This document shows, piece after piece, positions 8,604-57,170 of a stretch of 64,000 bases of DNA. Numbering within the stretch: position 1 is the first letter of the stretch; each line of letters opens with the position of its first letter. Source of the DNA: Novosphingobium flavum (GTDB taxonomy: Bacteria > Pseudomonadota > Alphaproteobacteria > Sphingomonadales > Sphingomonadaceae); NCBI RefSeq assembly GCF_014230315.1, contig NZ_JACLAW010000007.1, positions 62,001 to 126,000 of the forward strand, given 5' to 3'. The position numbers and the translations under genes are program-made. The notes under the pieces are model-generated. The model was given only the letters and a program-made list of their open reading frames with translations. It was not told the DNA's origin and ran no database searches.

Positions 8604-10999
8604 CAATATTCCGCCGAGAGGGTGAACTGGAACGTGCGCGGGCTCTGCGGCCGGAACGAGCCGTCGCCCGAAACCGCCGGAGAAATGAAGGCGAGCGTAT
8701 TCGTATCGAACACGTTGTCGAGGTTGAACCGCGCCTTGACCGTCTTGAGCGGCCCGACCGTCCAACCGTCACCGATGTCGACATAGGCGCTGAACACGGT
8801 GAACGGCGCGACCGCCGAGCCCGGCGTATTGGCCATGGTCGACCAGCGCGTGCCGGTGTGCTTGCCCGAGAAGTTGGCCACCAGCCACGAGGCCGGCTCG
8901 ACCGTCACCCCGCCATTGACGACCCATTTGGCACTGTCAGGCAGATACTTGCCTGCGGTCAGCACCGTGGCCGAGCCGACGATGTTGTCCTGGAACGTGG
9001 CGTGATTGTAGGTCGCGTTGAGGTTGAAATAGGCCAGCCCATGCAGGAAGGCCGGCTTGTACGTCGCGGTCAGTTCCGCGCCGTAGGCCTTCACCCGCCC
9101 GACATTGGTGTAGAAGGTCTCGGTTGCCCCCGAGGAACCCGCCAGGAAGGTCGTGATCGACTGGATGCGGTTCTGGAACTTGGTGTAAAAGCCCGAGAGT
9201 GAGGCATAGAATTGCGGCTGGTTGGTGCGGATGCCCACCTCGAAGTTCTGCGAACGCTCCGGCGCCGGTGCCGGAACCACGCCCGGCCCGCTGGCGAGGG
9301 TGACCGAGTAGATGTCGTCCATTCCCTTGGGCAGGGCCACGTTTTCCGAATAGGAGGCGAACATCTGCGTCCGGCTGTCCAGCTTGTAGAGCGCGCCGAC
9401 CTGCGGGAGGAAGAAGTCCTTGTAATGGGCGCGGTTGTATTGCGGGCCATAGCCGGCCACGGCGACGCCGTTCACGATCCGGTAGTAGTCGGCGAAATCG
9501 CGGTAGCCGCGCTGCTGGTAATCCATGTCGAGGCCCTTGACCCCGAGCTGGACCTGCAGCCGATCGTCCATCAGCTTGATCGTGTCCTTGGCGAAGAGCT
9601 GGACGATATTGCGCTCCGACTGGTAGTTGCGGCGGTAATAGACCACCTGGCCCAGCACCGGGGCGCTGGCGGGCGAACCATCGACCGTGTTCACGCGCAG
9701 CTGGGTACGGTTGTATTCGTCCAGCTCGTACCAGATGCCCGCCTCGATCGTGTGGGCGCCCATGTCCCAGTGCAGCTTGTTGGTGATGCCGTAGCGATCG
9801 CCGCCCACGCCGGAGCGGCCATATTGCGTGCCCTTGGGGGCGACCACGGCCAGACCGACCGCCGCTTCCGGGGTATAGCGGCTGAGGCTGTTATCATAGC
9901 TGTCGGGGCTGACGCCGTAGCCCTGCTTGTTTTCCCAGTAGAGCGTGGATTCGAAATAGACCCCCGGCGCCATGGCGAGGTGGACTGTGCCGCCGTAGAG
10001 CTTGTCGTTGCGCACGTTGATCGCCAGCGGCGAGGTGTAGGTGTAATTGACGTTGGAATAAGGCACCCCGGTCGTGGTCGGGGTGAAGCCCGCCGTGGTC
10101 GGCGACGGGGTGTCGATATAGCCGCGATAGCGCCCGGTATTGCCGCCGAGATCGGGTGTGGTGGAATAGTACTGCGCGCGGGTCAGCGTCGGGCTGTCAT
10201 AGTCGAAGAAGTCGTTGGAAACGAACTTCAACCGTAGCCACGAATCCCCGCCGAGGTCGGCCTTGACCTGCGCTTCCCAGTGCTCGCGGTCGATCGTGCC
10301 GGTCCCGCGCCACAGGTTGCTGTTGAGCTTGGTGCGGCTGACATAGCCCGCGAACGGCCCGATCTTGCCGGTCGAAACGCGGATGAAGGTGCGCTTCAGG
10401 CTGTCGTCGCCGAAGGTCTGCGAGGCGAAGACGCCGAATTCGTCCTGCGGCGCGATCGAATTGTAGGAGATCACCGGGCCGAGCGAGGAATAGGACGGCA
10501 GCGAGACGTCGCCCGCGCCGACCGAGGCCTCGACCCCGGCAAGGTTCTCGTTGTCGACATAGCGGAACACCGGGCTGCCGCCGAAGGCGTCGGAGCGGCC
10601 GGTCGGGATGCCGTCGATCAGGAAGCCGATCTGGTCGAGGTTGAAGGCGCGGGTCTGGACCGAGTTGCCGAATTCGTAGAGCCCGAGCGCGCCATCGGTC
10701 TGCACGTTGAAGCCGGGCAGCTGTTCCAGCATCTTGAGGCCGGAGACGCCCGATGGCGCCGACAGCAGGGCCTCGCGGGTCACGGCCACCACGGTGGTCA
10801 CCTTGTCCTCGCCGATCGTTTCCGAGGCTGCCGAGACGCGGCGGCCGGTCACGGTGATCTCGGGCGGGCTATCCCCTTCCGCATCCTCGGCGGCCGGGAT
10901 CGGCGCGGCCTGCGCGTGGGCGAGGGACGGAGCCACGGCGGAAACCGCCAGCAATGCGGGGGCGGAGATACCGAGCCGGAGCAGCGCGAGACGCTTCAT
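8603..10999 (-). CDS. TonB-dependent outer-membrane receptor
   Basis: A 798-residue receptor with a signal peptide ending AHAQ, a TonB box-like EITVTGRR, a plug domain containing LKMLEQLPGFNVQTDG, FLIDGIPTG and VEASVGAGDVSLPSYSSLGPVISY, and a 22-strand beta-barrel ending ...TFQFTLSAEY. The start at 10999 was preferred over the one six codons earlier because AGGAAAGG lies at ribosome-site distance. It is the first gene of a two-gene unit with the M19 dipeptidase. The ligand is unknown. Given the neighbours it could be a peptide-like or aromatic-ester compound. Confidence 0.92.
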   Translation of the reverse strand: MKRLALLRLGISAPALLAVSAVAPSLAHAQAAPIPAAEDAEGDSPPEITVTGRRVSAASETIGEDKVTTVVAVTREALLSAPSGVSGLKMLEQLPGFNVQTDGALGLYEFGNSVQTRAFNLDQIGFLIDGIPTGRSDAFGGSPVFRYVDNENLAGVEASVGAGDVSLPSYSSLGPVISYNSIAPQDEFGVFASQTFGDDSLKRTFIRVSTGKIGPFAGYVSRTKLNSNLWRGTGTIDREHWEAQVKADLGGDSWLRLKFVSNDFFDYDSPTLTRAQYYSTTPDLGGNTGRYRGYIDTPSPTTAGFTPTTTGVPYSNVNYTYTSPLAINVRNDKLYGGTVHLAMAPGVYFESTLYWENKQGYGVSPDSYDNSLSRYTPEAAVGLAVVAPKGTQYGRSGVGGDRYGITNKLHWDMGAHTIEAGIWYELDEYNRTQLRVNTVDGSPASAPVLGQVVYYRRNYQSERNIVQLFAKDTIKLMDDRLQVQLGVKGLDMDYQQRGYRDFADYYRIVNGVAVAGYGPQYNRAHYKDFFLPQVGALYKLDSRTQMFASYSENVALPKGMDDIYSVTLASGPGVVPAPAPERSQNFEVGIRTNQPQFYASLSGFYTKFQNRIQSITTFLAGSSGATETFYTNVGRVKAYGAELTATYKPAFLHGLAYFNLNATYNHATFQDNIVGSATVLTAGKYLPDSAKWVVNGGVTVEPASWLVANFSGKHTGTRWSTMANTPGSAVAPFTVFSAYVDIGDGWTVGPLKTVKARFNLDNVFDTNTLAFISPAVSGDGSFRPQSPRTFQFTLSAEY

Positions 11000-11200: not shown

Positions 11201-12544
11201 TCAGCGGAACAGCGAGATCAGCAGGACCATGATCAGGCCCATCACCGCGATCGCCGTTTCCAGCATCGACCAGGTGCGGAAGGTGTCACGGGTCGAGGTG
11301 CCGAGGTAGCCGCGCACGAGCCAGAAGCCCGGATCGTTGACGTGGGAAAAGATCACCGAGCCCGCGCCGATCGCCAGCACCATCAGCGCCGGGTCCGCGC
11401 CCGAGCGCGCGGCAACCTCGGCCATGATCCCCGAGGCGGTGATCGTGGCGACTGTGGCCGACCCCGTCGCCAGCCGGATCGCGGCCGAGACCAGCCAGGC
11501 CACCACCAGCGGCGAGACGATGTCGAGGCTCGCCAGCCGTCCGAACAGCGCGGGCAGGCCGATGGTGACGAGGATCTGCTTGAGCGCGCCGCCCGCGCCG
11601 ATGGCGAGGATGATCCCGCCGACCGGCACCATCGCCTCGCGCCAGATCGATTCCTGCACCCCCGGCGCCATGATCTGCCGGCCCAGCAGCACCGGCAGGG
11701 CCACCAGCACGCCCAGCAGCAGCGCCATCGGCGGGTCGGACAGCAGCCCGACCCATGACAGCGCGGCGGGTGAGAGATGCTCGTTGTCGAGCTTGAGCAC
11801 CGATCCGGCGCCGATCAGCAATACCGGCAGCAGCAGGACGGCCAGCGCCGCCAGCGGGCTGGCCGGGCGGGCGAGCAGGGCCGGGGCCACCGGCAGGGCG
11901 CCCGGATCGACCGCCACCCCGCGCGTGGTCCAGCGCGCCAGCAAGGGGCCGGCCGCCAGCGCGGTCGGAATGGCGGCGATCAGGCCCATGGTCATGGCCG
12001 GCAACAGGTCGGCCTTCAGTTCGCGCACGGCGATCAGCGGCCCTGGGTGCGGCGGCAGCAGCGCGTGAAGCACCGAGAGCCCGGCCAGCGCCGAGAGCAT
12101 GACCTTGAGCCGCAGTTCGGCACTGCCGCCCTGCGCCGCGAGCCCGGCGGCGATGATCGGCAGGAGCAGCACGGTCCCGGTCTCGAAAAACAGCGGCAGG
12201 CCGATCACGAAGGCGGCGACCAGCGCCCCCCAGGCGGCATTGCGCTCGCCGGTGAGCCCCAGCGCCCGGGCCGCCAGCGCCTGGGCCCCGCCCGAAACCT
12301 GCAGCACCGCGCCAAGCCCGAGCCCGAGCGCCACGACCATTCCGGTCCCGCGCAGGATGTCGGAAAAGCCCTTCTCGATGTCGGCGATCACCGCGGCCGG
12401 GTCCATCCCGGCGGTCAGCCCCGTCACCGCCGCGCCGCAGAGCAGGCCGACAAAGGGGTGAAGGCCGACCTTGGCGATCAGGAATATGGCAAGGGCAATC
12501 CCGAGGCAGGCCACGGCAACAAGCTGGAAATCGGCTGGCGCCAT
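11201..12544 (-). CDS. GntP-family gluconate:H+ symporter
   Basis: A 447-residue membrane protein with about 12-14 hydrophobic segments. GntP-family markers include ILRGTGMVVALGLGLGAVLQVSGGA, GLPLFFETGTVLLLPI, LLPPHPGP and the late FSHVNDPGFWLVRGYLG. It should import gluconate or a related sugar acid with protons. The start was set at 12544 (MAPADF) because GGGGGA precedes it by about ten bases. A start 11 codons upstream is possible. No gluconate kinase or dehydratase lies beside it, so the exact substrate is unsettled. Confidence 0.88.
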   Translation of the reverse strand: MAPADFQLVAVACLGIALAIFLIAKVGLHPFVGLLCGAAVTGLTAGMDPAAVIADIEKGFSDILRGTGMVVALGLGLGAVLQVSGGAQALAARALGLTGERNAAWGALVAAFVIGLPLFFETGTVLLLPIIAAGLAAQGGSAELRLKVMLSALAGLSVLHALLPPHPGPLIAVRELKADLLPAMTMGLIAAIPTALAAGPLLARWTTRGVAVDPGALPVAPALLARPASPLAALAVLLLPVLLIGAGSVLKLDNEHLSPAALSWVGLLSDPPMALLLGVLVALPVLLGRQIMAPGVQESIWREAMVPVGGIILAIGAGGALKQILVTIGLPALFGRLASLDIVSPLVVAWLVSAAIRLATGSATVATITASGIMAEVAARSGADPALMVLAIGAGSVIFSHVNDPGFWLVRGYLGTSTRDTFRTWSMLETAIAVMGLIMVLLISLFR

Positions 12545-12678
12545 GCGCAAAATCCCCCGGAAGCATCCCACTCGCATCCCGGCGTCTTGCCAGTGAGCGG
12601 CCTGCTCTGTGCCAGCTTCGGCGCAGGATGCAAGCGGGATGCCGTGCGGCTGGTCCAGGGCCGCCGACGGATTTCGTC

Positions 12679-14781
12679 CTAGGCGGGAACCAGTTCCAGC
12701 TCGTTCACCTGCTGCTTGACCCGGGCCCGCCAGGCATGGAGCAGCGGCTCGGTATAGCCGCTCGGCTGGGTTAGCCCCTCGAACACGAGGGCATGGGCCG
12801 CCTGGAACGCGGCGCTCGCCTGCGGGGCACGGGCCATCGGCCGGTAGAGCGGATCGCCCGCGTTCTGGGCATCGACCCGCGCCGCCATGCGCAGCAGCGC
12901 CGCTTCCACGTCAGCCGCCGAGCAGACCCCGTGAAGCAGCCAGTTGGTCATGTGCTGGCTCGAGATGCGCAGGGTGGCGCGGTCTTCCATCAGGCCAACG
13001 TCGTGGATGTCGGGCACCTTGGAGCAGCCGACGCCCTGGTCGATCCAGCGCACGACATAGCCAAGGACCCCTTGCGCATTGTTGTCCAGCTCGGCGCGGA
13101 TTTCCTCGGCCGTCCAGTCGGCGTTGGCCGCCAGCGGCAGGGTCAGCAGCGCGTCGAGCGCGGGCACCGGGGTCTCGGCCAGTTCGCGCTGGCGGGCAAA
13201 GACGTCGATCGCATGGTAATGCAGTGCGTGGAGCGTCGCCGCGGTCGGGCTCGGCACCCATGCGGTCGAGGCCCCGGCGAGCGGATGGGCGCTCTTCTGG
13301 GCCAGCATGTCGGCCATGCGGTCGGGCATGGCCCACATCCCCTTGCCGATCTGCGCCCTTCCCGAAAGCCCGCAGGCGAGGCCGATCGCCACGTTGCGCG
13401 CTTCATAGGCCTTGATCCAGGTCGCTTCCTTCATCGTGCCCTTGCGGACCATCGGCCCGGCCCGCATCGCGGTGTGGATCTCGTCGCCGGTCCGGTCGAG
13501 GAAACCGGTGTTGATGAAGACGATGCGGTGGCGCACGGCGTGGATGCAGGCGGCAAGGTTGACCGAAGTCCTCCGCTCCTCGTCCATCACCCCGATCTTG
13601 ATCGTGTGGCGGGCAAGGCCCAGCATGTCCTCGACCGCGTCGAACAGCCGGTCGGCGAAGGCCGCTTCCTCGGGCCCGTGCATCTTCGGCTTGACGATGT
13701 AGATCGAGCCTGTGCGGCTGTTGGACAGCATGCCCTTGCCGGTGAGGTCGTGCATCCCGATCACGCTGGTGACGATCGCGTCGAGAATGCCCTCCGGCGC
13801 CTCGCTGCCATCGGCCAGGCGCAGGGCCGGCGTGGTCATCAGGTGGCCCACGTTGCGGACGAACATCAGGCTGCGGCCGGGCAGGGTGAAGACCGTGCCG
13901 TCGGGCGCGGTCCAGGCCCGGTCGGGCGCCATTTCGCGGGTCGTCTCGTGGCCGTTCTTGTCAAACCGCGCGGTCAGCGTGCCCTGCATCAGGCCGAGCC
14001 AGTTGGCATAGGCCTCCACCTTGTCCGCCCCGTCGACCGCGGCGATCGAATCCTCGAAGTCGACGATCGTGGTCAGCGCCGCCTCGACGATGACGTCGGC
14101 CAGCCTGAGCGGATCGTGGCAACCGATCGGATGCTCGCCGTCGATCACCAGTTCGACGTGCAGGCCGTTGTGGCGAAACAGCAGGCCGCCCTCCCTGCGC
14201 CCGACCAGCGCCGGGTGCGGCGCGCCGTCGACCGCGTTCTGCCAGCCGGGAATCGTCTCGTTGAGGAACCGGCGCGCCCGGCAGATGACCTGGGCGCCGC
14301 GCTCGGGATCGAAGGCGCCAGGCTTCGGCTGGCCGGGCAGGGCGTCGGTTCCGTAGAGCGCGTCGTAGAGGCTGCCCCAGCGCGCATTGGCCGCGTTGAG
14401 CGCGAAGCGCGCGTTGAGCACGGGAACGACGAGCTGCGGCCCGGCCATGGTCGCGATCTCGGGATCGACGTTCTGGGTGTCGACCGTGAAGGGCGCCGGC
14501 TCGGGAACGAGGTAGCCGATCTGGCTGAGGAAGGCGCTGTAGGCGGCAGGATCGTGGGCATGGCCGGTGCGGGCCATGTGCCACAGGTCGATCCGGGCCT
14601 GGAGGTCGTTGCGCCGGGCGAGGAGTTGGCGGTTTTCCGGGGAGAAACGGGCGAACACGCCCGCCGCCCCGGCCCAGAAGGCCTGCGCCTCGATCCCGGT
14701 GCTGGGCAGGGCCCGCTCTTCCACGAAATGGCACAGCGCCTCGTCGATCGACAGTCCGGCGCGCTCGAGCATCTTGGTCAT
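12679..14781 (-). CDS. glcB: Malate synthase G
   Basis: A 700-residue malate synthase G, close to the 720-residue Escherichia coli enzyme. It condenses glyoxylate with acetyl-CoA to malate, the second step of the glyoxylate shunt. Seen in order are [53 protein letters not shown], and [23 protein letters not shown] follows, and the C-terminal third contains [23 protein letters not shown] with the conserved acidic patch. It is the last gene of aceA-small ORF-glcB, separated from the small gene by a strong hairpin. Confidence 0.95.
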
Positions 14782-47109: not shown

Positions 47110-47217
47110 ATGTCCCGTCCTGACGTTTCACTGGCCGGATGCCCGGTGCTTGTCCAGTGGGCGGCAGAAAGCAGGCGGCCGCGACGGGCGGTGAGAGGGG
47201 GGAAGCTTTTGCACAAT

Positions 47218-47253
47218 AACAATCGATTGCAGAAATGTGTTGCAATCGATTTA
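47218..47253. promoter_or_regulatory. Two LacI-type operators upstream of the sucrose receptor
   Basis: CAATCGATTG (47220-47229, perfect 10-base palindrome, in AACAATCGATTGCA) and CAATCGATTT (47243-47252, in TTGCAATCGATTTA) lie 23 bases apart, 68-101 bases before the receptor start. The same palindrome occurs before the symporter (51895) and the fructokinase (57112). They are the best candidates for binding by the LacI-type regulator at 55034-56065. Confidence 0.7.
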
Positions 47254-47320
47254 ATAAGGGTTATGACCCTAGCCAAGGCCGAAACAGGCCTGCACTTGGG
47301 AACAGCATCGGGAGGATGCC

Positions 47321-49765
47321 ATGAACAAAACTGCTCTGAACACGTGTGGTTCTGCCTTCGCGCTTGGCTGGATGGCCTTGGCGGCGCCAGCTTCGGCGCA
47401 AACTGTCGATCAGGTCCCGGCCACCGAAGAGGCGCCAGCCGAGGAAATCGTCGTCACCGGCGTGGCGCGCGCCGCCAACCGGCTCGACAGTTCGATTTCG
47501 GTGAGCGCGATCGGCGCCCAGGCGATTGCCGAGGCTGCGCCGCGTTCCGCCGCCGAACTGTTCCGCTCGCTGCCGGGAATTCGCTCGGAAAGCTCGGGCG
47601 GCGAGGGCAACGCCAACATCCAGATGCGCGGCATTCCGATCTCGACCGGCGGGGCCAAGTTCCTGCAGATCCAGGAAGATGGCCTGCCCGTGCTGGAATT
47701 CGGCGACATCGCCTTCGGCAATGCCGACATCTTCATGCGTATCGATGGCAATATTGCCCGGGTCGAGGCCGTGCGCGGCGGTTCGGCCTCGACCTTCGCC
47801 TCAAATTCGCCGGGAGGGATCATCAACCTGATCAGCAAGACCGGCGACCGCGCCGGCGGCGCCGTTCAGGCCTCGGTCGGCGTGGACTACGGCGAATACC
47901 GGGTCGATGGCGACTATGGCGGCGCGCTGGGCGAAAACCTGACGTTCCATGTCGGCGGGTTCTACCGGCAGGGTGAGGGGCCGCGCCGCGCCGGCTATGA
48001 CGGCAACAAGGGCGGCCAGATCCGTGGCAACATCACCCGTACGTTCTCGGGCGGGTTCTTCCGGGTCAACTTCAAGTACCTCAACGATCGCGCCATCGCC
48101 TATATGCCGAGCGCGGTACGGGTGACCGGCAGCAATGCCAGCCCGACCTGGACCGCGCTGCCGGGCCTCAGCCCGCAGAATGATGCGATCCAGTCGGTCT
48201 ATTTCACTCGCGCGGTTGGCCTCGACGGCGCGAACAACCGCGTGACCGACGATATACGCGACGGCATGCACCCGGTGGTCAAGGCGCTCGGCTTTGAGTT
48301 CGAGGACGAGTTTGCCAAGGGCTGGACGGTCAACAACAAGTTCCGTTACGCCGATATCTCCGGCCGCTTCATCGCGCCCTTCACCGCTACGGTCGACACG
48401 GTCCAGAACCTTTCGGCCGCGATCGGCGGCACCGGGGCCACGGCTGTCTATGCCAATGGGCCGAGCGCCGGGCAGGCCGTTTCGCCCAGCGCCAATGCCT
48501 TCGGCATCGTGCTGTTCAACACCAAGCTCAATGCGCTGGACAACATCACCAACGACCTGCGGCTCAGCCATGCGGCCGACCTTGGCGGCGGCAAGCTTGA
48601 CCTGTCGGTCGGCTTCTACAAGTCGCGCCAGAAGATCGACATGGACTGGACCTGGTCGTCCTACCTGCTGGAGGCGAAGGGCGATAATGCGGCGCTGATC
48701 AACGTGAAGAATGCGGCCGGGGCCTTGCAGACCGACAATGGCCTGATCGCCTACGGCGCTTCGTTCTTCGGTGATTGCTGCCGGCGCACCTACAAGCTGA
48801 CGTTCGACACCAATGCGCCTTATGCCCAGCTGTCGTGGAACAGCGGCGCGCTGACCCTCGACAGCTCGCTGCGCTACGACTTCGGCCATGCCGGGGGCTA
48901 TGTCGCCGGTGACGGCGGGGTTTCCAGCTACGACGTCGACGGCAACGGCACGATCTCGGTGCCCGAGACGAAGACTACCCTGATGCCGCTGACCGCGCGG
49001 CGGCCGGTGAATTACGACTATCACTACTGGTCCTACTCGGTCGGTGCCAACTACCGCATCGGGGCCGATCTCTCGGTCTTCGCGCGCTACAGCCGGGGCG
49101 GCCGCGCCAATGCGGATCGCTACGTGTTCGGCGGCAATACCAGCGCGGTGACCGGGGCCCTGCTGCCCGGCGCGCGGCCGGTGGACTTCGTGCGCCAGGC
49201 CGAGGCCGGGGTGAAGTACCAGACCCCCTCGCTCCAGCTCTACGCCACCGGCTTCTGGGCCAGGACCGAGGAGCAGAACTACGAGGCGACGACCCAGAAG
49301 AGCACGGCCAAGACCTACCGTGCCTATGGCCTCGAACTCGAGGGCAATTACCGCTCGGGCGGCTTCACCCTCGCGGCGAGCGGCACGCTGACTTCGGCCA
49401 GGATCCTCGCCTCCAACACGGCGGCCGAGGTGGGGCACCGCCCGCGCCGGCAGGCCGAGTTCACGTACCGGGTCAGCCCGTCCTACAGCGCCGGGATGTT
49501 CAGTCTCGGCGCCAGCCTGGTTGGTACGACTTCGAGCTACACCCAGGACGACAACCAGCTCAAGATGCCCGGCTACACTGTGGTCAACGCATTCGTCACG
49601 GTGCGCCCGGTCGAGCGGGTCTCGCTCTCGCTAAGCGCCAACAACCTGTTCGACGTGGCTGGCTATACCGAGGCGGAAGAAGGCTCGATCCCGGCGAACG
49701 GTATTGTCCGGGCCCGTTCGATCAACGGCCGCACGTTGCTTGCCTCGCTGCGCTACGACTTCTGA
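47321..49765 (+). CDS. TonB-dependent receptor of the sucrose locus
   Basis: An 814-residue receptor. The signal ends ASAQ. A TonB box EEIVVTGVA precedes the plug (RSLPGIRSESSGGEGNANIQ, NIARVEAVRGGSASTFASNS). The barrel ends RTLLASLRYDF. It is behind two LacI-type operators and at the left end of the sucrose locus, so by comparison with SuxA of Xanthomonas it probably takes up sucrose or sucrose-like glycosides through the outer membrane. Direct evidence for the ligand is lacking. A hairpin terminator follows. Confidence 0.88.
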   Translation: MNKTALNTCGSAFALGWMALAAPASAQTVDQVPATEEAPAEEIVVTGVARAANRLDSSISVSAIGAQAIAEAAPRSAAELFRSLPGIRSESSGGEGNANIQMRGIPISTGGAKFLQIQEDGLPVLEFGDIAFGNADIFMRIDGNIARVEAVRGGSASTFASNSPGGIINLISKTGDRAGGAVQASVGVDYGEYRVDGDYGGALGENLTFHVGGFYRQGEGPRRAGYDGNKGGQIRGNITRTFSGGFFRVNFKYLNDRAIAYMPSAVRVTGSNASPTWTALPGLSPQNDAIQSVYFTRAVGLDGANNRVTDDIRDGMHPVVKALGFEFEDEFAKGWTVNNKFRYADISGRFIAPFTATVDTVQNLSAAIGGTGATAVYANGPSAGQAVSPSANAFGIVLFNTKLNALDNITNDLRLSHAADLGGGKLDLSVGFYKSRQKIDMDWTWSSYLLEAKGDNAALINVKNAAGALQTDNGLIAYGASFFGDCCRRTYKLTFDTNAPYAQLSWNSGALTLDSSLRYDFGHAGGYVAGDGGVSSYDVDGNGTISVPETKTTLMPLTARRPVNYDYHYWSYSVGANYRIGADLSVFARYSRGGRANADRYVFGGNTSAVTGALLPGARPVDFVRQAEAGVKYQTPSLQLYATGFWARTEEQNYEATTQKSTAKTYRAYGLELEGNYRSGGFTLAASGTLTSARILASNTAAEVGHRPRRQAEFTYRVSPSYSAGMFSLGASLVGTTSSYTQDDNQLKMPGYTVVNAFVTVRPVERVSLSLSANNLFDVAGYTEAEEGSIPANGIVRARSINGRTLLASLRYDF

Positions 49766-49791
49766 GCGAAGCTGGCTGCAAGGCCGGACGA

Positions 49792-49821
49792 GGGGAGGGT
49801 GCCGCGGCATCCTCCCCTTTT
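49792..49821 (+). terminator. Terminator after the sucrose receptor
   Basis: GGGGAGGGTGCC and GGCATCCTCCCC form an 11-12 base stem with one G-T pair, followed by TTTT. Rho-independent. Confidence 0.75.
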
Positions 49822-49825
49822 CGCG

Positions 49826-50908
49826 TCAGGCCGGCTCGAAGGCCTTGGCCTGACGCCCGGCGAGCGCCCCGGTCAGTGCGGCGATGAACTGGTCGGTCGC
49901 CTTCTCCCAGGTGAAGCGGGCGCCGTAGACCGCCGCCGCCTTGCGGTCGAGCCGCAGGGCCTTGCGTACCGCGACCGCGATGTCCCGGTCGAGCGCGGAA
50001 AAGGTCGCCGGGAGCGGGTCGAACTGGCCGCGCCCATCGGCGCCCAGCACGTCGAGCGGACCGGCGACCGGCAGGGCCGCCACCGGCAGCCCGCAGGCGA
50101 GCGCCTCGATCACCACCAGCCCGAAGGTATCGGTCCGGCTCGGAAAGACGAAGACGTCTGCCGCGCGGTAGGCATTGGCAAGGTCATCGCCGGCAAGCGC
50201 CCCGGTGAACACCGCTTGCGGGTAGAGGGCGCGAAGGCGCTCAAGATCCGGGCCGTCGCCGACCACCACCTTGGTGCCGGGCAGGTCGGCCGAGAGAAAC
50301 GCCTCGAGGTTCTTTTCCGGCGCGACCCGGCCAACGTTGAGCATGATCGGGCGGGGCAGGTCGGCCAGGGCCGGGTGGCGATCGCCGACAGGGCGGAAGG
50401 TCCACCCGTCAATTCCGCGTCCCCAGGGCGCGACCGGACCGATGCCGCGCTGTTCAAGCTCGGCGGCAAGGCTCGGCGTGGAGACGAGCACGGCGCGGCT
50501 CGGCTGGTGGAAGCGGCGCATGAGCGGCCAGAAGCGTTCGGCGTCTATCCCGGTGCGCAGGGCGAGATAATCGGGAAAGCGGGTATGAAATGCGCTGGTG
50601 AAGCCAATCCCGCGCGCCTTGCACCAGCCTCGCGCCGCCCAGCCGATGGGGCCTTCGGTGGCAATGTGGACGATGTCGGGCGCGAAGCTGTCCAGCAGGC
50701 GGCGCGCGGCGAAACGCGGGGCCAGCGCCAGGCGGATCTGGCTGTATCCGGGCAGCGGCAGGGTAGTGAAGCGCTGCGGGGTGATCAGTTCCACTTCGTA
50801 GCCGCGCCGGTCGAGTTCGGCCACGGTCGCGGCCAGGCTGCGGACCACGCCGTTGACTTGCGGGAACCAGGCGTCGGTGGCGATGGCGATGCGCAGCGGG
50901 GCGCTCAT
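49826..50908 (-). CDS. GT4-family glycosyltransferase
   Basis: A 360-residue GT-B glycosyltransferase of family 4. The early DAWFPQVNGVVRSL, and the donor-site pair GRVAPEKNLEAFLSA and VFPSRTDTFGLVVIEALACGLPV with its conserved Glu, resemble mannosyl- or glucosyltransferases acting on lipid carriers. It overlaps the upstream phosphoesterase by four bases (ATGA). The two genes are on the minus strand inside the sucrose locus. A combined role in a glycolipid is suggested by known LpxH relatives, but not proved. Confidence 0.85.
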   Translation of the reverse strand: MSAPLRIAIATDAWFPQVNGVVRSLAATVAELDRRGYEVELITPQRFTTLPLPGYSQIRLALAPRFAARRLLDSFAPDIVHIATEGPIGWAARGWCKARGIGFTSAFHTRFPDYLALRTGIDAERFWPLMRRFHQPSRAVLVSTPSLAAELEQRGIGPVAPWGRGIDGWTFRPVGDRHPALADLPRPIMLNVGRVAPEKNLEAFLSADLPGTKVVVGDGPDLERLRALYPQAVFTGALAGDDLANAYRAADVFVFPSRTDTFGLVVIEALACGLPVAALPVAGPLDVLGADGRGQFDPLPATFSALDRDIAVAVRKALRLDRKAAAVYGARFTWEKATDQFIAALTGALAGRQAKAFEPA

Positions 50909-51786
50909 GCGACCAACTCCCCTTCGCGCACGGGATTTGCGGCAGCGCGCCGGTTTTCCTCGGCCCAGTCGAGGATGTGCATCCGGCCGTCGGCTTCCTC
51001 GACCAGCGCGGTGCAGCTCTCCACCCAGTCGCCATCGTTGTAATAGGTCACCGCGCCGATCCGGCGGATCTCGGCGCAGTGGATGTGGCCGCAGACGATG
51101 CCGTCGGCCCCGCGCGAAAGCGCTTCCTGCGCGACGGCTTCCTCGAAGTTGGAAACGTACTGGACCGCGTTCTTGACGCGCTTCTTGAGATAGCTCGACA
51201 GCGACCAGTAGGGCAGGCGGAACATCCGGCGCACCCGGTTGACCACGACGTTCAGGCGCAGCAGCAGGCCGTAGGCCTTGTCGCCCAGGAAGGCGAGCCA
51301 GCGGGCATAGAGCACGACCCCATCATAGGCATCGCCGTGCTGGACCAGCAGGCGGCGCCCGTCGGCCGTTTCGTGGATCGCTTCCAGCACCAGTTCCACC
51401 CCGCCGAAGGTGAGCCCGGCATAGTCGCGCAGCACCTCGTCGTGATTGCCGGCGACGAAGACCACGCGGGTGCCGCGGTGCGCCATCTTGAGGATCCGGC
51501 GGATCACCTCGTTGTGGGCATCGGGCCAGTACCAGCCCTTGCGCAGCCGCCAGCCGTCGACGATGTCGCCGACGAGGTAGAGCGTCTCGCACTCGATCGC
51601 GCGGAGGAAATCGACCAGCAGCGCCGCATTGCAGCCGCGCGTGCCGAGGTGGATGTCGGAAATCCACACGGTGCGGACCTTGCGCTTGGGGCGGAAGCCG
51701 CGCGGATCTGGCAGGTCGAGCCAATCGGGGATCGAGGGGCGCCCGGTGGCTGCGGGCGGATCGAGCAGGGTGGCGGTATCGAACAT
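50905..51786 (-). CDS. LpxH-like metallophosphoesterase (UDP-2,3-diacylglucosamine diphosphatase family)
   Basis: A 293-residue calcineurin-like phosphoesterase. The metal motifs are all there: DIHLG, GDIVDGW, GNHDEVL, VQHGDAYDG and GHIHCAE. This arrangement is that of the UDP-2,3-diacylglucosamine diphosphatase (LpxH) family. Many alphaproteobacteria use the unrelated LpxI for lipid A, so this member may serve another lipid. ATG 51786 was chosen because the extended frame upstream lacks similarity. It is divergent from the sucrose symporter with two palindromes between. Confidence 0.83.
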   Translation of the reverse strand: MFDTATLLDPPAATGRPSIPDWLDLPDPRGFRPKRKVRTVWISDIHLGTRGCNAALLVDFLRAIECETLYLVGDIVDGWRLRKGWYWPDAHNEVIRRILKMAHRGTRVVFVAGNHDEVLRDYAGLTFGGVELVLEAIHETADGRRLLVQHGDAYDGVVLYARWLAFLGDKAYGLLLRLNVVVNRVRRMFRLPYWSLSSYLKKRVKNAVQYVSNFEEAVAQEALSRGADGIVCGHIHCAEIRRIGAVTYYNDGDWVESCTALVEEADGRMHILDWAEENRRAAANPVREGELVA

Positions 51787-51892
51787 CGCAGGGAAACCCT
51801 TCGCGGGGATGATGGCAAAGGGGTGCCATGCGCAGGTTTCGAGGTGGTGACGGCTTGGCGACAGTTTGGTTACATCCGCGCAGATCTGAGCA

Positions 51893-51922
51893 TGCAATCG
51901 ATTGTTGCAATCGTTTTGCAAA
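51893..51922. promoter_or_regulatory. LacI-type operators before the sucrose symporter
   Basis: CAATCGATTG (51895-51904) is a perfect 10-base palindrome. A second, weaker copy CAATCGTTTT (51908-51917, in TTGCAATCGTTTTGCAA) is 13 bases further on. They lie about 73-100 bases before the symporter start and also face the LpxH-like gene. Confidence 0.7.
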
Positions 51923-51994
51923 TATGCCATTGCCACTTTCGGAATGCCGGTAGAGCATCCGCCCCCAAGCCTGCTCTGTGGGAGAGCGATTGCG

Positions 51995-53380
51995 ATGGAA
52001 GTGCCAGTATCCGTGCCGCGACCGCACCTGTCGCTCTCCCGCATTCTCGAGATGAACCTGGGGTTCCTGGGTCTCCAGTTCAGTTTCGGCCTGCAGCAGG
52101 GGAACATGGGGCCGATCTATTCCTACCTCGGCGCAAGCGAGGGTGCCCTCCCGCTGCTGCAACTGGCCGGGCCGATGACCGGGTTGCTGGTCCAGCCGCT
52201 GATCGGCGCCCTGTCCGACCGGACGGGCAGCAAGTGGGGGCGGCGTACGCCCTATTTCCTTGCCGGAGCTCTGCTCTGTGCGCTGGGCCTGCTGTTCATG
52301 CCGCTCGCATCGTCGCTGCTGATGGCGGCCTCGCTGCTGTGGCTGCTCGATGCCGGCAACAACATCACGATGGAGCCATACCGGGCCTACGTCGCCGACC
52401 GGCTCGATCCGGGCCAGCGTCAGTTCGGTTTCCTGACGCAGAGCGCCTTCACCGGCCTTGCCCAGATGCTGGCCTATCTCACGCCGTCGCTGCTGGTAAT
52501 GGCCGGGATGGACCGCGACTGGGTCGATCCCCACGGCATTCCCTATACGGTGCGGGTGGTGTTCTGGGCCGGGGCGGCGCTCTCGCTCGGCACGATCGTC
52601 TGGTCCGTGCTGCGGGTGCCCGAACTGCCACTGGGCGATGCGGACCGCGCGCGGATCGCTGCCGCGCCCAAGGGCTTCGGTGCGGCCCTGACCGAGATCG
52701 GCGCCGCGATCCGCGAGATGCCCATCGCCATGCGCAAACTCGGCCTGATGAGCCTGTTCCAGTGGTTCGCCTTCTGGGGTTACTGGACCTATGTAACTTA
52801 CGTCGTCGCGCGCAATGTCTACGGCACGGCCGATCCGGCGAGTGGCGGTTTTCACGAGGCCGTTTTGACCAATGGCCAGATGGCGGCCTTCTACAATCTC
52901 GTCGCTTTCGTGGCCGCTTTCGCCATGGTTCCGCTGGTCCGCCGGATCGGGCCGGGGCCGGTTCATGCGCTGTGCCTGATGGCGGGCGGGGCGGGCATGC
53001 TCGCCCTGCCGCTGGTCACTGCCAAGGCCGCCCTGTTCGTGCCGATGCTGGGCATCGGCCTGGCCTGGGGCAGCACCATGGGCAACCCCTATGCGATCCT
53101 CTCGAATTCGATCCCGCCCGAGCGGACCGGGGTCTACATGGGGATCTTCAACATGATGATCGTCCTGCCCATGCTCGGGTTCTCGGTGTTGATGAGCTCG
53201 CTCGACCTCGGCTTCGTGACCTTCGGCTTCGGCATGTACGAGAAACTCCTGGCCGGCGATCCGCGCAACCTGCTCTCGCTGTGCGGGGCCTGCCTGATTG
53301 CCGCAGGCTTTGCGGTCCTGTGGGTGCGTGAAGGTCGCGCCCCGGCTGCGCTCGCAAGCCCCGGAATGCTCCATTCGTGA
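51995..53380 (+). CDS. Sucrose symporter (GPH/SUT-type MFS permease)
   Basis: A 461-residue, 12-helix permease. The loop DRTGSKWGRRTPYFL carries the RxGRRxP-type signature of plant SUT and bacterial SuxC sucrose transporters. FGLQQGNMGPIYSYLGA and MEPYRAYVADRLDPGQRQFGF are shared with that group. ATG 51995 has GGGAGAG eight bases upstream; the longer frame runs into the operator and is not plausible. It is directly followed by, and overlaps, the GH68 gene, supporting sucrose transport into the cytoplasm. Confidence 0.88.
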   Translation: MEVPVSVPRPHLSLSRILEMNLGFLGLQFSFGLQQGNMGPIYSYLGASEGALPLLQLAGPMTGLLVQPLIGALSDRTGSKWGRRTPYFLAGALLCALGLLFMPLASSLLMAASLLWLLDAGNNITMEPYRAYVADRLDPGQRQFGFLTQSAFTGLAQMLAYLTPSLLVMAGMDRDWVDPHGIPYTVRVVFWAGAALSLGTIVWSVLRVPELPLGDADRARIAAAPKGFGAALTEIGAAIREMPIAMRKLGLMSLFQWFAFWGYWTYVTYVVARNVYGTADPASGGFHEAVLTNGQMAAFYNLVAFVAAFAMVPLVRRIGPGPVHALCLMAGGAGMLALPLVTAKAALFVPMLGIGLAWGSTMGNPYAILSNSIPPERTGVYMGIFNMMIVLPMLGFSVLMSSLDLGFVTFGFGMYEKLLAGDPRNLLSLCGACLIAAGFAVLWVREGRAPAALASPGMLHS

Positions 53381-54552
53381 TTGATGGGAAGATGATGCCT
53401 GACGATACCCTTTCGCACGCCCATTCCGGCAATCCTTTGCAGGTGCGCCCGCTGGCGACCGGCGCCTGGCGGCCTGAACGGTTCGGTGCTGATGGCGGGC
53501 ATATTCCCCTGATCGGGGCGGAGGATGTTCGCCCCCTCGTGCCCGGGCTCGACCTGTGGGACTGCTGGCCGCTCACCCGCGATGATGGCAGCACAGCCGC
53601 GATCGGCGGGCGGCATTACTGGTTCTTCCTCAGCGCCCCGCAGTTTCCCGACCCGGTCCAGCGCCATGGCCAGGCCCGCATCCGCCTGCTTTCGCACGGC
53701 GCCGACGGCTGGCGCGACCATGGCAATGCCTTGCCCGACGGGCTTAACCCCGGTTCGCGCGAATGGGCCGGCTCAGCGGTTCTGCACGAGGACGGGGTGT
53801 CGCTGACCCTGTACTTCACCGCAGCCGGAAGGCGCGGGGAGCAGGCCCTCACTTTCGAGCAGCGGCTCTTTGCCGTGGATGGCCGCCTCGGACCCGGCGG
53901 GACCGGCGATTGGGGCGAGCCGGCCGAGATCGTCGCGGCCGATGGTTCGCTCTATGCCCTGGCCAACGATGCGGTCGAACGCGGCCCCGGCACCCTCAAG
54001 GCCTTTCGTGATCCGTTCTACTTCCGCGATCCTGCCACCGGCAAGGCGCACATCGTGTTCACCGCCAGCGCAGGGTGGAGCGACGATCCGCACAACGGCA
54101 TGATCGGCCTCGCCACGCTGACCAAGCAGGGCTGGATACTAGGCGACCCATTGGTCGAGGCGATCGGCGTCAACAACGAACTGGAGCGGGCCCAGGCCCA
54201 TTTCCGCGACGGGCGCTATTACCTGTTCTGGTCGACCCAGTCCCACACCTTCGCCCCCGGCGCGCCGAAGGGGCCCAACGGGCTCTACGGCATGGTCGGC
54301 GAAAGCCTGCGCGGGCCGTGGCGGCCGGTCAACGGCTCGGGGCTGGTGGCAGCCAATCCGGCGAACGAGCCGGCCCAGTCCTATTCCTGGGTGGTGACCG
54401 GGGAGGACGAGGTCTGGTCGTTCGTCGACTACTGGGGGCTGGCGGGACGCGGGATTGCCGACCATCCCGAACTGCTGCGCAGCCACTTTGGCGGCACAGC
54501 CGCGCCGGTGTTCAAGCTGGCCTTCGCCGGCGACCGGGTGGACGTCATCTGA
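53377..54552 (+). CDS. GH68 sucrose-splitting enzyme (levansucrase/invertase family), cytoplasmic
   Basis: A 391-residue glycoside hydrolase family 68 protein. The catalytic residues are visible: nucleophile D62 in LWDCWP, transition-state stabiliser D212 in FRDPFYF, and acid/base E270 in NNELERAQ. No signal peptide is present, unlike secreted levansucrases. With an upstream symporter and a downstream fructokinase, sucrose hydrolysis inside the cell is likelier than polymer synthesis. GTG 53377 overlaps the symporter stop; ATG 53392 or 53395 are alternatives with poorer ribosome sites. Confidence 0.9.
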   Translation: MIDGKMMPDDTLSHAHSGNPLQVRPLATGAWRPERFGADGGHIPLIGAEDVRPLVPGLDLWDCWPLTRDDGSTAAIGGRHYWFFLSAPQFPDPVQRHGQARIRLLSHGADGWRDHGNALPDGLNPGSREWAGSAVLHEDGVSLTLYFTAAGRRGEQALTFEQRLFAVDGRLGPGGTGDWGEPAEIVAADGSLYALANDAVERGPGTLKAFRDPFYFRDPATGKAHIVFTASAGWSDDPHNGMIGLATLTKQGWILGDPLVEAIGVNNELERAQAHFRDGRYYLFWSTQSHTFAPGAPKGPNGLYGMVGESLRGPWRPVNGSGLVAANPANEPAQSYSWVVTGEDEVWSFVDYWGLAGRGIADHPELLRSHFGGTAAPVFKLAFAGDRVDVI

Positions 54553-54975
54553 TCACCGGGCGGCGGGAGCGTCGCCGATGATCCGCGCTTCCCGCCAATA
54601 GCCGAACTCACCTTCGCCGGGCCAGGCTCGCCCGTCGGGAAAACGCAGTTCGATCCCGGCAAGTTCGCTCTCGTCGGCCAGCCACATGTTCACACCCATC
54701 AGGGTATTGCCATATTTCGCCACGGCGCTCTCGGTCAGGCTGAAATGAGTGGTCGAGCCGCAGACCGGGCAGAAATGAAAGTTCGTCCCCGGCTCCGCCT
54801 TGTCGCTGCGGTGATAGGCGGTCGTGGCACCCGTGATGTGCACTTCGGAAGGATGGAAATAACCCCACCGCGCGCCCGACTTGCCGCAGATGGAGCAATT
54901 GCAGGCGTTGATATAGTCGGGCCGCTTGCCAAGCGTGATGCGGACCGCGCCGCAGTGGCAGGAAAATGTCTTCAT
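54553..54975 (-). CDS. GFA/CENP-V-domain zinc protein
   Basis: A 140-residue protein of the glutathione-dependent formaldehyde-activating (GFA) fold. Zinc-binding Cys motifs are FSCHCGAVRI, CNCSICGKSGA and FHFCPVCGSTTHF. Members are often annotated as S-(hydroxymethyl)glutathione synthases, though activity is unproven for most. It converges with the GH68 gene, touching it without overlap. It follows the LacI gene by 58 bases and may be co-transcribed. A link to sucrose is not apparent. Confidence 0.88.
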   Translation of the reverse strand: MKTFSCHCGAVRITLGKRPDYINACNCSICGKSGARWGYFHPSEVHITGATTAYHRSDKAEPGTNFHFCPVCGSTTHFSLTESAVAKYGNTLMGVNMWLADESELAGIELRFPDGRAWPGEGEFGYWREARIIGDAPAAR

Positions 54976-55033
54976 GCCCGCGTCATACAGCCCCGGGCGG
55001 GGGCGAGGCAATTGGTCCGGCCCGGTACCCGGC

Positions 55034-56065
55034 TCAGGCGCTTTCGCGGACGATCAGCCGGGGCTCCATCACCAGCGAGTCGGTCTCTTCCCCCGCGATC
55101 CGGCGCAGCAGACGCGAAACCATTTCCTCGGCGCCGCGTCCGATCTGTTGGTGGATGGAGCTGAGCTGCGGAACGGTCTGCGTCGCCAGCGGCAAGTCGT
55201 CGAAGCCAACCAGTGCGATGTCGCGCGGCACTTGCTGTCCGCGCTCGTGCAATTGGCGCAGGGTGGCCATGGCGATCACGTCGGAGGCGGTGAAGATGCC
55301 GGTGATGGCCGGGTCCATCGCCTCGAGATCGGCGGCGATCCGCTCGGCCATATTGTCGGTTGCGAGGGGGGTGGCAAACAGCTCGATGTTGGCCCCGGTT
55401 CCTGCCTCGGCCACGGCGGCACGGGCGCCCTTGAGGCGCTCCTCGATCTCGATGCCGCGAATGTCGCCGAAAAAGGCAAGGCGCTTGCGGCCCTGCGCGA
55501 GCAGGTGCTGCGCCGCGAGCTTGCCGCCGGTGAAATTGTCGGTCCCTACCGCGCAGTGCACCTGCCCCGGCTGGTGGACGCCCCAGGCGACCAGCGGGCG
55601 ATAGTGAGCGGCGACCTGTTCGATCACTGCGAACTGGTCGGACTGGCCGATCATCAGCACTCCTTCCAGCATCCCGGAATCGACCAGTCGTTCCAGCCAC
55701 TCGTCGTTGTGCTCGGGAATGACGCGGCTCAGCATCAGGTCATACCCGCGCTCGGTCAACGCGTCGGCCAGATAGCCCAGCAAGGTCATGAAGAAGGGGT
55801 CTGAAATATGCTGGCGCTTGTCATGGCCAAGCGGAATGACCACGCCGATCACGCCGGTCTGCCCGGTGCGCAAGCGGCTCGCCATCTGGTTGGGGCGGAA
55901 GCCGTGTTCGCGGGCCAGGGCCTGAATTCGTTCACGCGTCTCGCGGTTGACCAGGTCCTTGCCCGCCAGTGCACGCGAAACCGTGCCCGCCGACACCCCC
56001 GCGAGCTTTGCCAACTCCGAGATGTTTCGGATCCGGCGCGGCTTGTCCCGAGATTCCGTTGCCAT
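55034..56065 (-). CDS. LacI-family transcriptional regulator of the sucrose locus
   Basis: A 343-residue LacI regulator. The N-terminal headpiece ISELAKLAGVSAGTVSRALAG is the DNA-binding helix-turn-helix, followed by the hinge LVNRETRERIQALARE. The rest is a sugar-binding domain with GVVIPLGHD, GVLMIGQSD, and IALVGFDDLPLA. ATG 56065 (MATES) is preferred over one seven codons upstream. It is placed after the ROK gene on the same strand. CAATCGATTG palindromes occur at three promoters of this locus, as expected for its operator. The inducer might be sucrose or fructose. Confidence 0.85.
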   Translation of the reverse strand: MATESRDKPRRIRNISELAKLAGVSAGTVSRALAGKDLVNRETRERIQALAREHGFRPNQMASRLRTGQTGVIGVVIPLGHDKRQHISDPFFMTLLGYLADALTERGYDLMLSRVIPEHNDEWLERLVDSGMLEGVLMIGQSDQFAVIEQVAAHYRPLVAWGVHQPGQVHCAVGTDNFTGGKLAAQHLLAQGRKRLAFFGDIRGIEIEERLKGARAAVAEAGTGANIELFATPLATDNMAERIAADLEAMDPAITGIFTASDVIAMATLRQLHERGQQVPRDIALVGFDDLPLATQTVPQLSSIHQQIGRGAEEMVSRLLRRIAGEETDSLVMEPRLIVRESA

Positions 56066-56140
56066 TCGCTCGCCCAGTGTCCCCATTGGACAGGTTGTTA
56101 TCGGTGCTGCCCCATTGCGCCCCTGTTCCGAATCAGGGGC

Positions 56141-57055
56141 TTACGCGGCGGCGTCACGCTGCGCAATGGCCTGTCGAGCAAGTTCTGCCGCTCCCGTAAT
56201 TCCGGCTTCGTCGCCCAGGCCGGGCGAGACGATGTAGTGTTCCAGCTCCGGATCGTCATGGAGATGGGCGACATAGCCTGCCAGCCGCCGTGCGGTTTCG
56301 CGGCGCAGCGCGGGGATCAGGCCCGGCGCCTTCATCACGCCGCCGCCGAACACCAACCGGTCCGGAGCGTGAAGCAAGACGAGATTGGTTGCAAGATCAG
56401 CCAGATAGCCCGAGATGAGCGCCACGGCCGGCGCCGGATCAGCCATGGCATCAAGGCTGTCTCCGAAGCGTGCGCGGATCGCCGGGCCGGCGGCCAGCCC
56501 CTCGAGGCAATCGCCGTGGTAGGGGCAGAGGCCATCGAACGGATCGCGCGCGCGGTCGTGCGCCACCGGGATGTGCCCGGATTCGTAGTGGCTGAAGCCG
56601 GCCATCGGGCGCAGGTCCCGCACCACGCCGGTACCGATCCCGGTGCCGACGGTGGTATAGGCTAAAGTCCGGCAACCCTTGCCCGCGCCGCTCAGCGCCT
56701 CGCCCAGCGCGGCGCCGTTGACGTCGGTGTCGACCTTGAGCGGCACGCCGAGCGGGCGGAGCCAGTCGATGAAGCTGGCGCCTGACCAGCCGGGCTTTGG
56801 AGTGGTGGTAATCGTGCCGTAAGTGGGCGAGGCGGGGTCGATGTCGAGCGGGCCGAAGCTGGCGACGCCGATCGCGGCAAGCTCGCCGTGCCCGGACGGG
56901 GCTTCGCTGAAGAAGCGGATGACCTCGGGCATGGTTTCCGCCGCCGTCAGGGTCGCAATGCGTTGCTCCGCTACAATCCGCCCGGCTTCGTCCATCAGGG
57001 CGAGGACGAACTTGGTCCCGCCAGCCTCGATCGCGCCGATCAGGGGTTTGGCCAT
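56141..57055 (-). CDS. ROK-family fructokinase
   Basis: A 304-residue ROK kinase. GAIEAGGTKFVLAL is the phosphate-binding loop. The zinc and fructokinase motif is SGHIPVAHD with CPYHGDCLEGLAAGPAI, as in Zymomonas and Bacillus fructokinases. LVFGGGVM closes the second phosphate site. It should make fructose 6-phosphate from fructose freed by the GH68 enzyme. A perfect LacI-type palindrome lies 57 bases before it. LacI follows on the same strand. Confidence 0.93.
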   Translation of the reverse strand: MAKPLIGAIEAGGTKFVLALMDEAGRIVAEQRIATLTAAETMPEVIRFFSEAPSGHGELAAIGVASFGPLDIDPASPTYGTITTTPKPGWSGASFIDWLRPLGVPLKVDTDVNGAALGEALSGAGKGCRTLAYTTVGTGIGTGVVRDLRPMAGFSHYESGHIPVAHDRARDPFDGLCPYHGDCLEGLAAGPAIRARFGDSLDAMADPAPAVALISGYLADLATNLVLLHAPDRLVFGGGVMKAPGLIPALRRETARRLAGYVAHLHDDPELEHYIVSPGLGDEAGITGAAELARQAIAQRDAAA

Positions 57056-57111
57056 GCTTCCAGTCTCCCGTTTATCGTTGCCGCTTGAATGCCCTTACAG
57101 GCAAGAGATTG

Positions 57112-57121
57112 CAATCGATTG
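57112..57121. promoter_or_regulatory. LacI-type operator before the fructokinase
   Basis: CAATCGATTG, identical to the palindromes at 47220 and 51895, with GATTG extending the symmetry on the left. It lies in the 115-base gap between the fructokinase and the aminotransferase, 57 bases from the kinase start. It could also affect the aminotransferase. Confidence 0.65.
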
Positions 57122-57170
57122 TTGTATCCCGCTCTTGTGCAGCGGCGGAGACGATCCTAGCAGCAACGCC

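Follow-up and report, generated by a model that had tools for sequence, protein, structure and literature searches.

A putative LacI-controlled regulon for importing sucrose and cleaving it in the cytoplasm in Novosphingobium flavum and its family

Genes and palindromes at the locus

We analyzed a 64,000-nucleotide stretch of Novosphingobium flavum DNA (RefSeq assembly GCF_014230315.1, contig NZ_JACLAW010000007.1, positions 62,001 to 126,000; hereafter the window), in which genes for a TonB-dependent receptor, a SUT-like symporter of the major facilitator superfamily (MFS), a GH68 enzyme, a LacI-family regulator, and a ROK kinase lie together with copies of the palindrome CAATCGATTG. We consider it highly probable that these genes and sites form a local sucrose utilization regulon run by the LacI protein encoded at 55034–56065. 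The genes are listed below with the profile and structure matches behind each call, followed by the putative operators and their state in two other stretches, L174 and L087; L087 belongs to a Sphingomonadaceae metagenome-assembled genome of 2.8 Mb and is the closest relative with the same gene order.

47321–49765, plus strand: TonB-dependent receptor gene (tonB); PF00593 and PF07715 over cut-off
51995–53380, plus strand: SUT-like MFS symporter gene (sut); PF07690 over cut-off, TIGR01301 at 72.5 bits, PDB plant SUC1 at E=4.6e-13
53377–54552, plus strand: GH68 gene (gh68), overlapping the end of sut; PF02435, PDB levansucrase 7bj4 at E=3.6e-67
55034–56065, minus strand: LacI-family regulator gene (lacI); PF00356 and PF13377 over cut-off
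56141–57055, minus strand: ROK kinase gene (rok), probable fructokinase, with lacI behind it on this strand; PF00480, NF045550 at 228 bits, PDB fructokinase 1xc3 at E=5e-66
47217–47232, unstranded: tonB operator 1, TAACAATCGATTGCAG; kept in L174 as CAACAATCGATTGCAG
47240–47255, unstranded: tonB operator 2, TTGCAATCGATTTAAT, 23 bp from operator 1; kept in L174 as TTGCAATCGATTTTAG with spacing unchanged
51892–51907, unstranded: sut-gh68 operator, ATGCAATCGATTGTTG; all 16 bases identical in L087
51905–51921, unstranded: imperfect second element, TTGCAATCGTTTTGCAA, doubtful; not conserved in L087
57109–57124, unstranded: rok-lacI operator, CAACAATCGATTGCAA on the minus strand; AACAATCGATTGCAA identical in L087

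The first-pass annotation had called these genes a TonB receptor, a SUT-type symporter, a GH68 enzyme, LacI, and a ROK fructokinase, and the calls were right at the level of families (TonB receptor, MFS resembling SUT, GH68, LacI, ROK). The GH68 protein scored 167 bits against a Pfam cut-off of 27, and the regulator combines a LacI helix-turn-helix domain (PF00356) with a periplasmic-binding-like domain (PF13377). Among solved structures, the symporter comes closest to a plant sucrose transporter and the kinase to a bacterial fructokinase; it is by the SUC1 match, together with its low TIGR01301 score, that we describe the symporter as resembling sucrose transporters. The end of sut is overlapped by gh68, and rok is followed after 75 bp by lacI in the same orientation; the sites would therefore head tonB, sut-gh68, and rok-lacI as three transcription units, and rok-lacI is probably a single autoregulated operon.

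Exact copies of CAATCGATTG occur three times in the window, at 47220–47229 before the TonB gene, at 51895–51904 before the symporter gene, and at 57112–57121 before the ROK gene, and a one-mismatch copy, CAATCGATTT, lies at 47243–47252. The palindrome ranks first among all 1024 palindromic decamers for over-representation in the window, with 3 copies observed vs 0.08 expected. A genome search, proposed in the first-pass annotation, found it at four places in 4.1 Mb (26 contigs), three of them in this locus; the chance that three of four random places hit one given 10-kb stretch is ~6e-8, with no correction for how motif and stretch were chosen. The fourth copy, at C4:104545 (L055:9547), sits ~130 bp past the 3' end of a TonB gene, no gene start was seen next to it for genes of at least 90 amino acids, and its flanks do not extend the palindrome; we rejected it as an extra regulon member, and it is probably a chance occurrence.

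The L087 stretch keeps the gene order of the window (aminotransferase, rok, lacI, gh68, sut, phosphoesterase, GT4, tonB), and exact CAATCGATTG occurs in its genome at three places only, which are the same three promoters. Its tonB promoter reads AACAATCGATTGCAGAAAT and then, 23 bp on, TTGCAATCGATTT, so that the mismatch of the window pair is kept as well. At the symporter promoter ATGCAATCGATTGTTG is kept while the surrounding bases differ, and at the rok promoter AACAATCGATTGCAA is kept and the flanks have diverged. Of the copies counted in the first-pass annotation, the single one before ROK is exact, and of the two before the TonB gene one is exact and the other has a mismatch, yet is conserved. 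The pair claimed for the symporter is reduced to its exact copy; the supposed second, TTGCAATCGTTTTGCAA, is doubtful because it has one extra base in its right half relative to the palindrome and falls among the bases that L087 does not share.

Conservation of the operator in the family

LacI relatives were searched in 199 family genomes (161 with a match) and, as a second source, in a scan of named genomes from which the best 80 of 524 were taken, many of them Novosphingobium and Sphingomonas. Stretches were read around 39 and 80 loci, and 116 of the 120 rows were counted, leaving out L055, which is not a LacI locus, and L101, L124, and L140, which lie on the same contigs as L035, L037, and L038. 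Gene matches had bit-score minima of 150 (TonB), 300 (SUT), 150 (GH68), 250 (LacI), and 120 (ROK), upstream stretches shorter than 150 bases were left out, and the motif was sought within 250 bp upstream.

The family form of the operator is TTGCAAWCGWTTGCAA, usually doubled at tonB with the copies 22–24 bp apart. A central CG is habitual in LacI-family operators. The core, TGCAAWCGWTTGCA, was found with up to two mismatches upstream of 58 of 61 TonB genes and 61 of 69 SUT genes, two counts that are not independent where the genes are divergent and their promoters overlap. Among 59 control palindromes made by rearranging the half-site letters, the maxima were 4 (TonB), 1 (SUT), 3 (LacI), 2 (ROK), and 2 (GH68), and when similar upstream stretches were grouped, the core remained at 28/30 for TonB and 40/46 for SUT. 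Counting without a preset motif, we found CAATCGATTG to be the most frequent palindromic decamer upstream of each of the five genes (TonB 31/61, SUT 35/69, LacI 34/116, ROK 4/73, GH68 14/77). Paired sites, with up to three mismatches, occur in 56/61 TonB and 23/69 SUT upstream stretches. Of 66 spacings at TonB, 51 are 22, 23, or 24 bp, the window pair having 23 bp, which is close to the 22-bp member of the published spacing peaks of LacI-family tandem sites (13, 22, and 32 bp; PMC4052901).

A control on neighboring genes, with only two or three stretches per gene and up to two mismatches, gave 1/3 for the aminotransferase, 0/2 for the potassium channel, 0/2 for GT4, and 1/2 for the phosphoesterase, and two of these four genes adjoin regulon promoters in the window. 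Conservation of the sites upstream of relatives, as for a palindromic LacI-family operator, and at levels far above the scrambled controls, supports the earlier proposal that a single LacI regulon spans the three promoters, as does the restriction of exact copies to those promoters in the L087 genome.

Pfam and NCBIfam scans also placed genes for a GT4 glycosyltransferase, a calcineurin-like phosphoesterase, and a GFA protein within the window locus. The first two lie between tonB and sut (49826–51789), an insertion that L087 shares and that has no obvious link to sucrose; a GFA gene was not detected in the L087 stretch.

The regulator and an enzyme swap in two relatives

Nine LacI-type proteins are encoded in the genome, and the recognition helix SAGTVSRAL belongs to the window LacI only, the other eight differing. 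Because this helix is unique and the motif is nearly confined to the locus, the local LacI (55034–56065) is the likely binder of the palindrome, in line with the first-pass view of a local regulator. A tie between the operator center (TCGA vs ACGT) and the recognition helix was not seen by eye: L035 has TCGA and L047 has ACGT, both with VSAGTVSRAL.

Two observations concern relatives of this regulator elsewhere. Novosphingobium aerophilum has three, which are 73, 73, and 63% identical (L086, L089, and L100), and in L086 the LacI gene sits between aminotransferase and potassium-channel genes without sucrose genes. In L054 and L056–L062, relatives of LacI, GH68, and ROK are accompanied by several palindrome copies, and no relative of the window symporter or receptor was found in the stretch; these loci are perhaps a sister regulon with other transporters.

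The GH68 protein carries WDCW, RDP, and ELER, which correspond to the GH68 catalytic motifs WDxW, RDP, and ER and align with 7bj4, and the three short patterns are present in 77/77 relatives. Its N-terminus has no hydrophobic stretch, with a hydropathy of 0.6 against a line of 1.8, suggesting that the enzyme may act in the cytoplasm. That line, passed by 7 of 77 GH68 relatives and 47 of 61 TonB receptors and failed by the window receptor (1.6), is a hydropathy test, not a signal-peptide predictor, and the longest reading frame was taken for each relative. The protein families, the catalytic patterns, and this N-terminus fit the import, splitting, and phosphorylation route that the first-pass annotation had put forward. 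In another sucrose cluster, a GH97 gene (L051:3464–5497) lies between gh68 and tonB.

An amylosucrase-type GH13 enzyme stands in place of GH68 in two relatives. Across the 199 family genomes, with thresholds of E≤1e-80 for SUT, E≤1e-40 for GH68, and E≤1e-100 for GH13, 34 genomes matched SUT, 38 matched GH68, and 3 matched GH13. GH68 accompanies the symporter in 29 of the 34 SUT genomes; two others (G028 and G134) have GH13 and no GH68, and G002, G007, and G025 have neither enzyme at these thresholds, while nine genomes have GH68 without SUT. The locus of G028 (L067) runs rok, GH13, esterase, tonB, two operators with 2 and 3 mismatches, sut, and lacI, and the closest solved structures of its GH13 are 2wpg ("amylosucrase or alpha amylase") and 3cze (sucrose hydrolase). 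In G134, the GH13 protein shares 48% identity with that of L067; its gene and a ROK gene are found behind a TonB gene, with one operator just upstream of this TonB gene and a further one before the LacI gene. G046 is the third genome with a GH13 match and, at the thresholds, lacks both SUT and GH68; its GH13 gene is near a LacI relative with a three-mismatch site ~130 bp upstream. The GH13 query had no match at E≤1e-100 in the genome of the window. The earlier description of the locus as sux-like with GH68 in the place of amylosucrase thus gains from two symporter-bearing relatives that have GH13, no GH68, and the operator in their loci.

Esterase or alpha/beta-hydrolase genes occur in both symporter-bearing GH13-type loci (L067:4482–5534; L166:7071–8147, 8326–9441, 9458–10360, and 11737–13338), and one reading of them is that acylated sucroses are used.

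A proposed sucrose regulon and its alternatives

We propose that the LacI protein binds TTGCAAWCGWTTGCAA-form palindromes at three promoters and represses, rather than activates, tonB, sut-gh68, and rok-lacI, control of the last amounting to autoregulation. Sucrose would cross the outer membrane through the TonB receptor and pass intact across the inner membrane through the SUT-like symporter, after which GH68 would cleave it in the cytoplasm and the ROK kinase would phosphorylate the fructose; intracellular sucrose, or fructose from it, would release the repressor. As far as sequence can show, LacI-controlled import of sucrose and its cleavage in the cytoplasm form a genuine regulon across the family.

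Several results count against this proposal. When one mismatch is allowed, the four matches in the window are not unusual, since four were also reached in 13 of 100 shuffles. A search of the genome with the 16-base family consensus, allowing up to three mismatches, gave 11 places, and the four in the window are three operators and one site within the aminotransferase gene; the symporter site has four mismatches to it and so falls outside the 11, the window operators in general differing from the consensus at 3–4 of 16 bases. A consensus promoter scan gave no match at any of the three sites. The core is less frequent upstream of LacI (53/116), ROK (19/73), and GH68 (16/77) genes, for which other gene orders may be the cause. 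Both the symporter and the kinase score below the curated cut-offs of their NCBIfam models, the symporter at 72.5 bits vs 511 for TIGR01301, the sole model matched, and the kinase at 228 bits vs 400 for NF045550 (fructokinase ScrK), its best model. Finally, LacI relatives that are ~50% identical have the same palindrome nearby, and related regulators in other genomes may share it.

This last result, along with the nine LacI-type proteins of the genome, is what would favor binding of the palindrome by another LacI-family or global regulator, the local LacI having a different operator. We regard such an arrangement as very improbable, given a motif that is nearly confined to the locus, and exactly so in the L087 genome, and eight other recognition helices that differ. 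It is also conceivable, though unlikely, that the regulon is real but has a different sugar as its main substrate, for instance raffinose or another oligosaccharide containing sucrose, or fructo-oligosaccharides, and that sucrose itself plays a minor part. Receptor specificity is not readable from sequence, the receptors under the operator vary (~36% identical in L035/L036 and 51–67% in others), and the symporter is only distantly similar to known sucrose transporters; however, GH68, a sucrose-transporter-like protein, and a fructokinase-like kinase together point to sucrose, and the enzyme that replaces GH68 is closest to amylosucrase and sucrose hydrolase.

A different doubt concerns the product, as GH68 could make levan or fructo-oligosaccharides instead of feeding central metabolism. 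Its best solved relative is named a levansucrase, and a GH68 enzyme from the genus of many near relatives, Saro_1879 of Novosphingobium aromaticivorans, has been characterized as a levansucrase that makes oligolevans in vitro (PMC7432509). Yet the same report gives Saro_1879 a kcat/Km of 40.7 for hydrolysis vs 0.303 for transfer, so that it is mainly hydrolytic by this measure, although the work on it addressed fructan production in vitro. The window gene, moreover, overlaps the importer gene, is grouped with a kinase for the free product of its enzyme, encodes an N-terminus without a hydrophobic stretch, and is replaced by an amylosucrase-type GH13 gene in two relatives. Fructan synthesis as the role of this GH68 therefore seems to us quite improbable, and we retain sucrose import followed by cytoplasmic cleavage.

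The proposed regulon resembles the sux locus of Xanthomonas campestris (suxA, suxB, suxC, and suxR), where sucrose enters the cell intact and is then split by an amylosucrase-type hydrolase, and where SuxR is a repressor whose inducer is sucrose, not fructose or glucose (PMC1790865). Each locus brings together a TonB receptor, an MFS transporter of the inner membrane, an enzyme that splits sucrose, and a LacI-type regulator, a likeness drawn from gene families. The window locus differs in having GH68 rather than amylosucrase, a ROK kinase in the set, and three separated promoters, and while SuxR is a proven repressor with sucrose as its inducer, the role of the window LacI is a predicted one. 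The locus thus appears to work like sux, yet, judged by amylosucrase, it falls outside the sux loci. PMC1790865 (2007) reports good conservation of the amylosucrase for the Caulobacter locus alone, with a different enzyme in the remaining loci, which seem to rely on more classical pathways. It also describes the Xanthomonas MFS transporter as well conserved in the sucrose carbohydrate utilization (CUT) loci of Sphingomonas SK58 and Erythrobacter litoralis; for these two loci, the passages of that paper name neither GH68 nor an operator. Because enzyme variation in sux-like loci is already in print there, a variable enzyme is no new idea. In the ScrR, CscR, and SuxR groups, too, local LacI regulators control genes for a transporter, a hydrolase, and a fructokinase, tandem sites being frequent, and the passages describing them in PMC4052901 are without sphingomonads, to which the window locus belongs. 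Our literature search for the letters of CAATCGATTG and two longer forms returned no paper with the 14-base core and none by title on this system, and no description of this regulon was found; RegPrecise and supplements were outside the search, so the motif may be listed there.

On balance we favor, with some reserve, the view that TTGCAAWCGWTTGCAA defines a family sucrose regulon that keeps its operator, LacI, and symporter, whereas its enzyme is exchangeable (mostly cytoplasmic GH68, in a few cases GH13) and its receptor is substituted. The regulon is otherwise ordinary in kind, and its interest lies in the family-wide operator and in the enzyme swap, in which an unrelated enzyme takes the same place beneath a conserved switch. 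The operator is ready for testing in a large and environmentally common family, whose sucrose regulon may be predictable from sequence. We suggest that GH68 genes in such loci, where they lack an export signal, be read as coding for hydrolases that act on sucrose inside the cell; if the family-wide view is true, many sphingomonad proteins annotated as "levansucrase" would hydrolyze sucrose in the cytoplasm as part of an import route and would not be makers of fructan.

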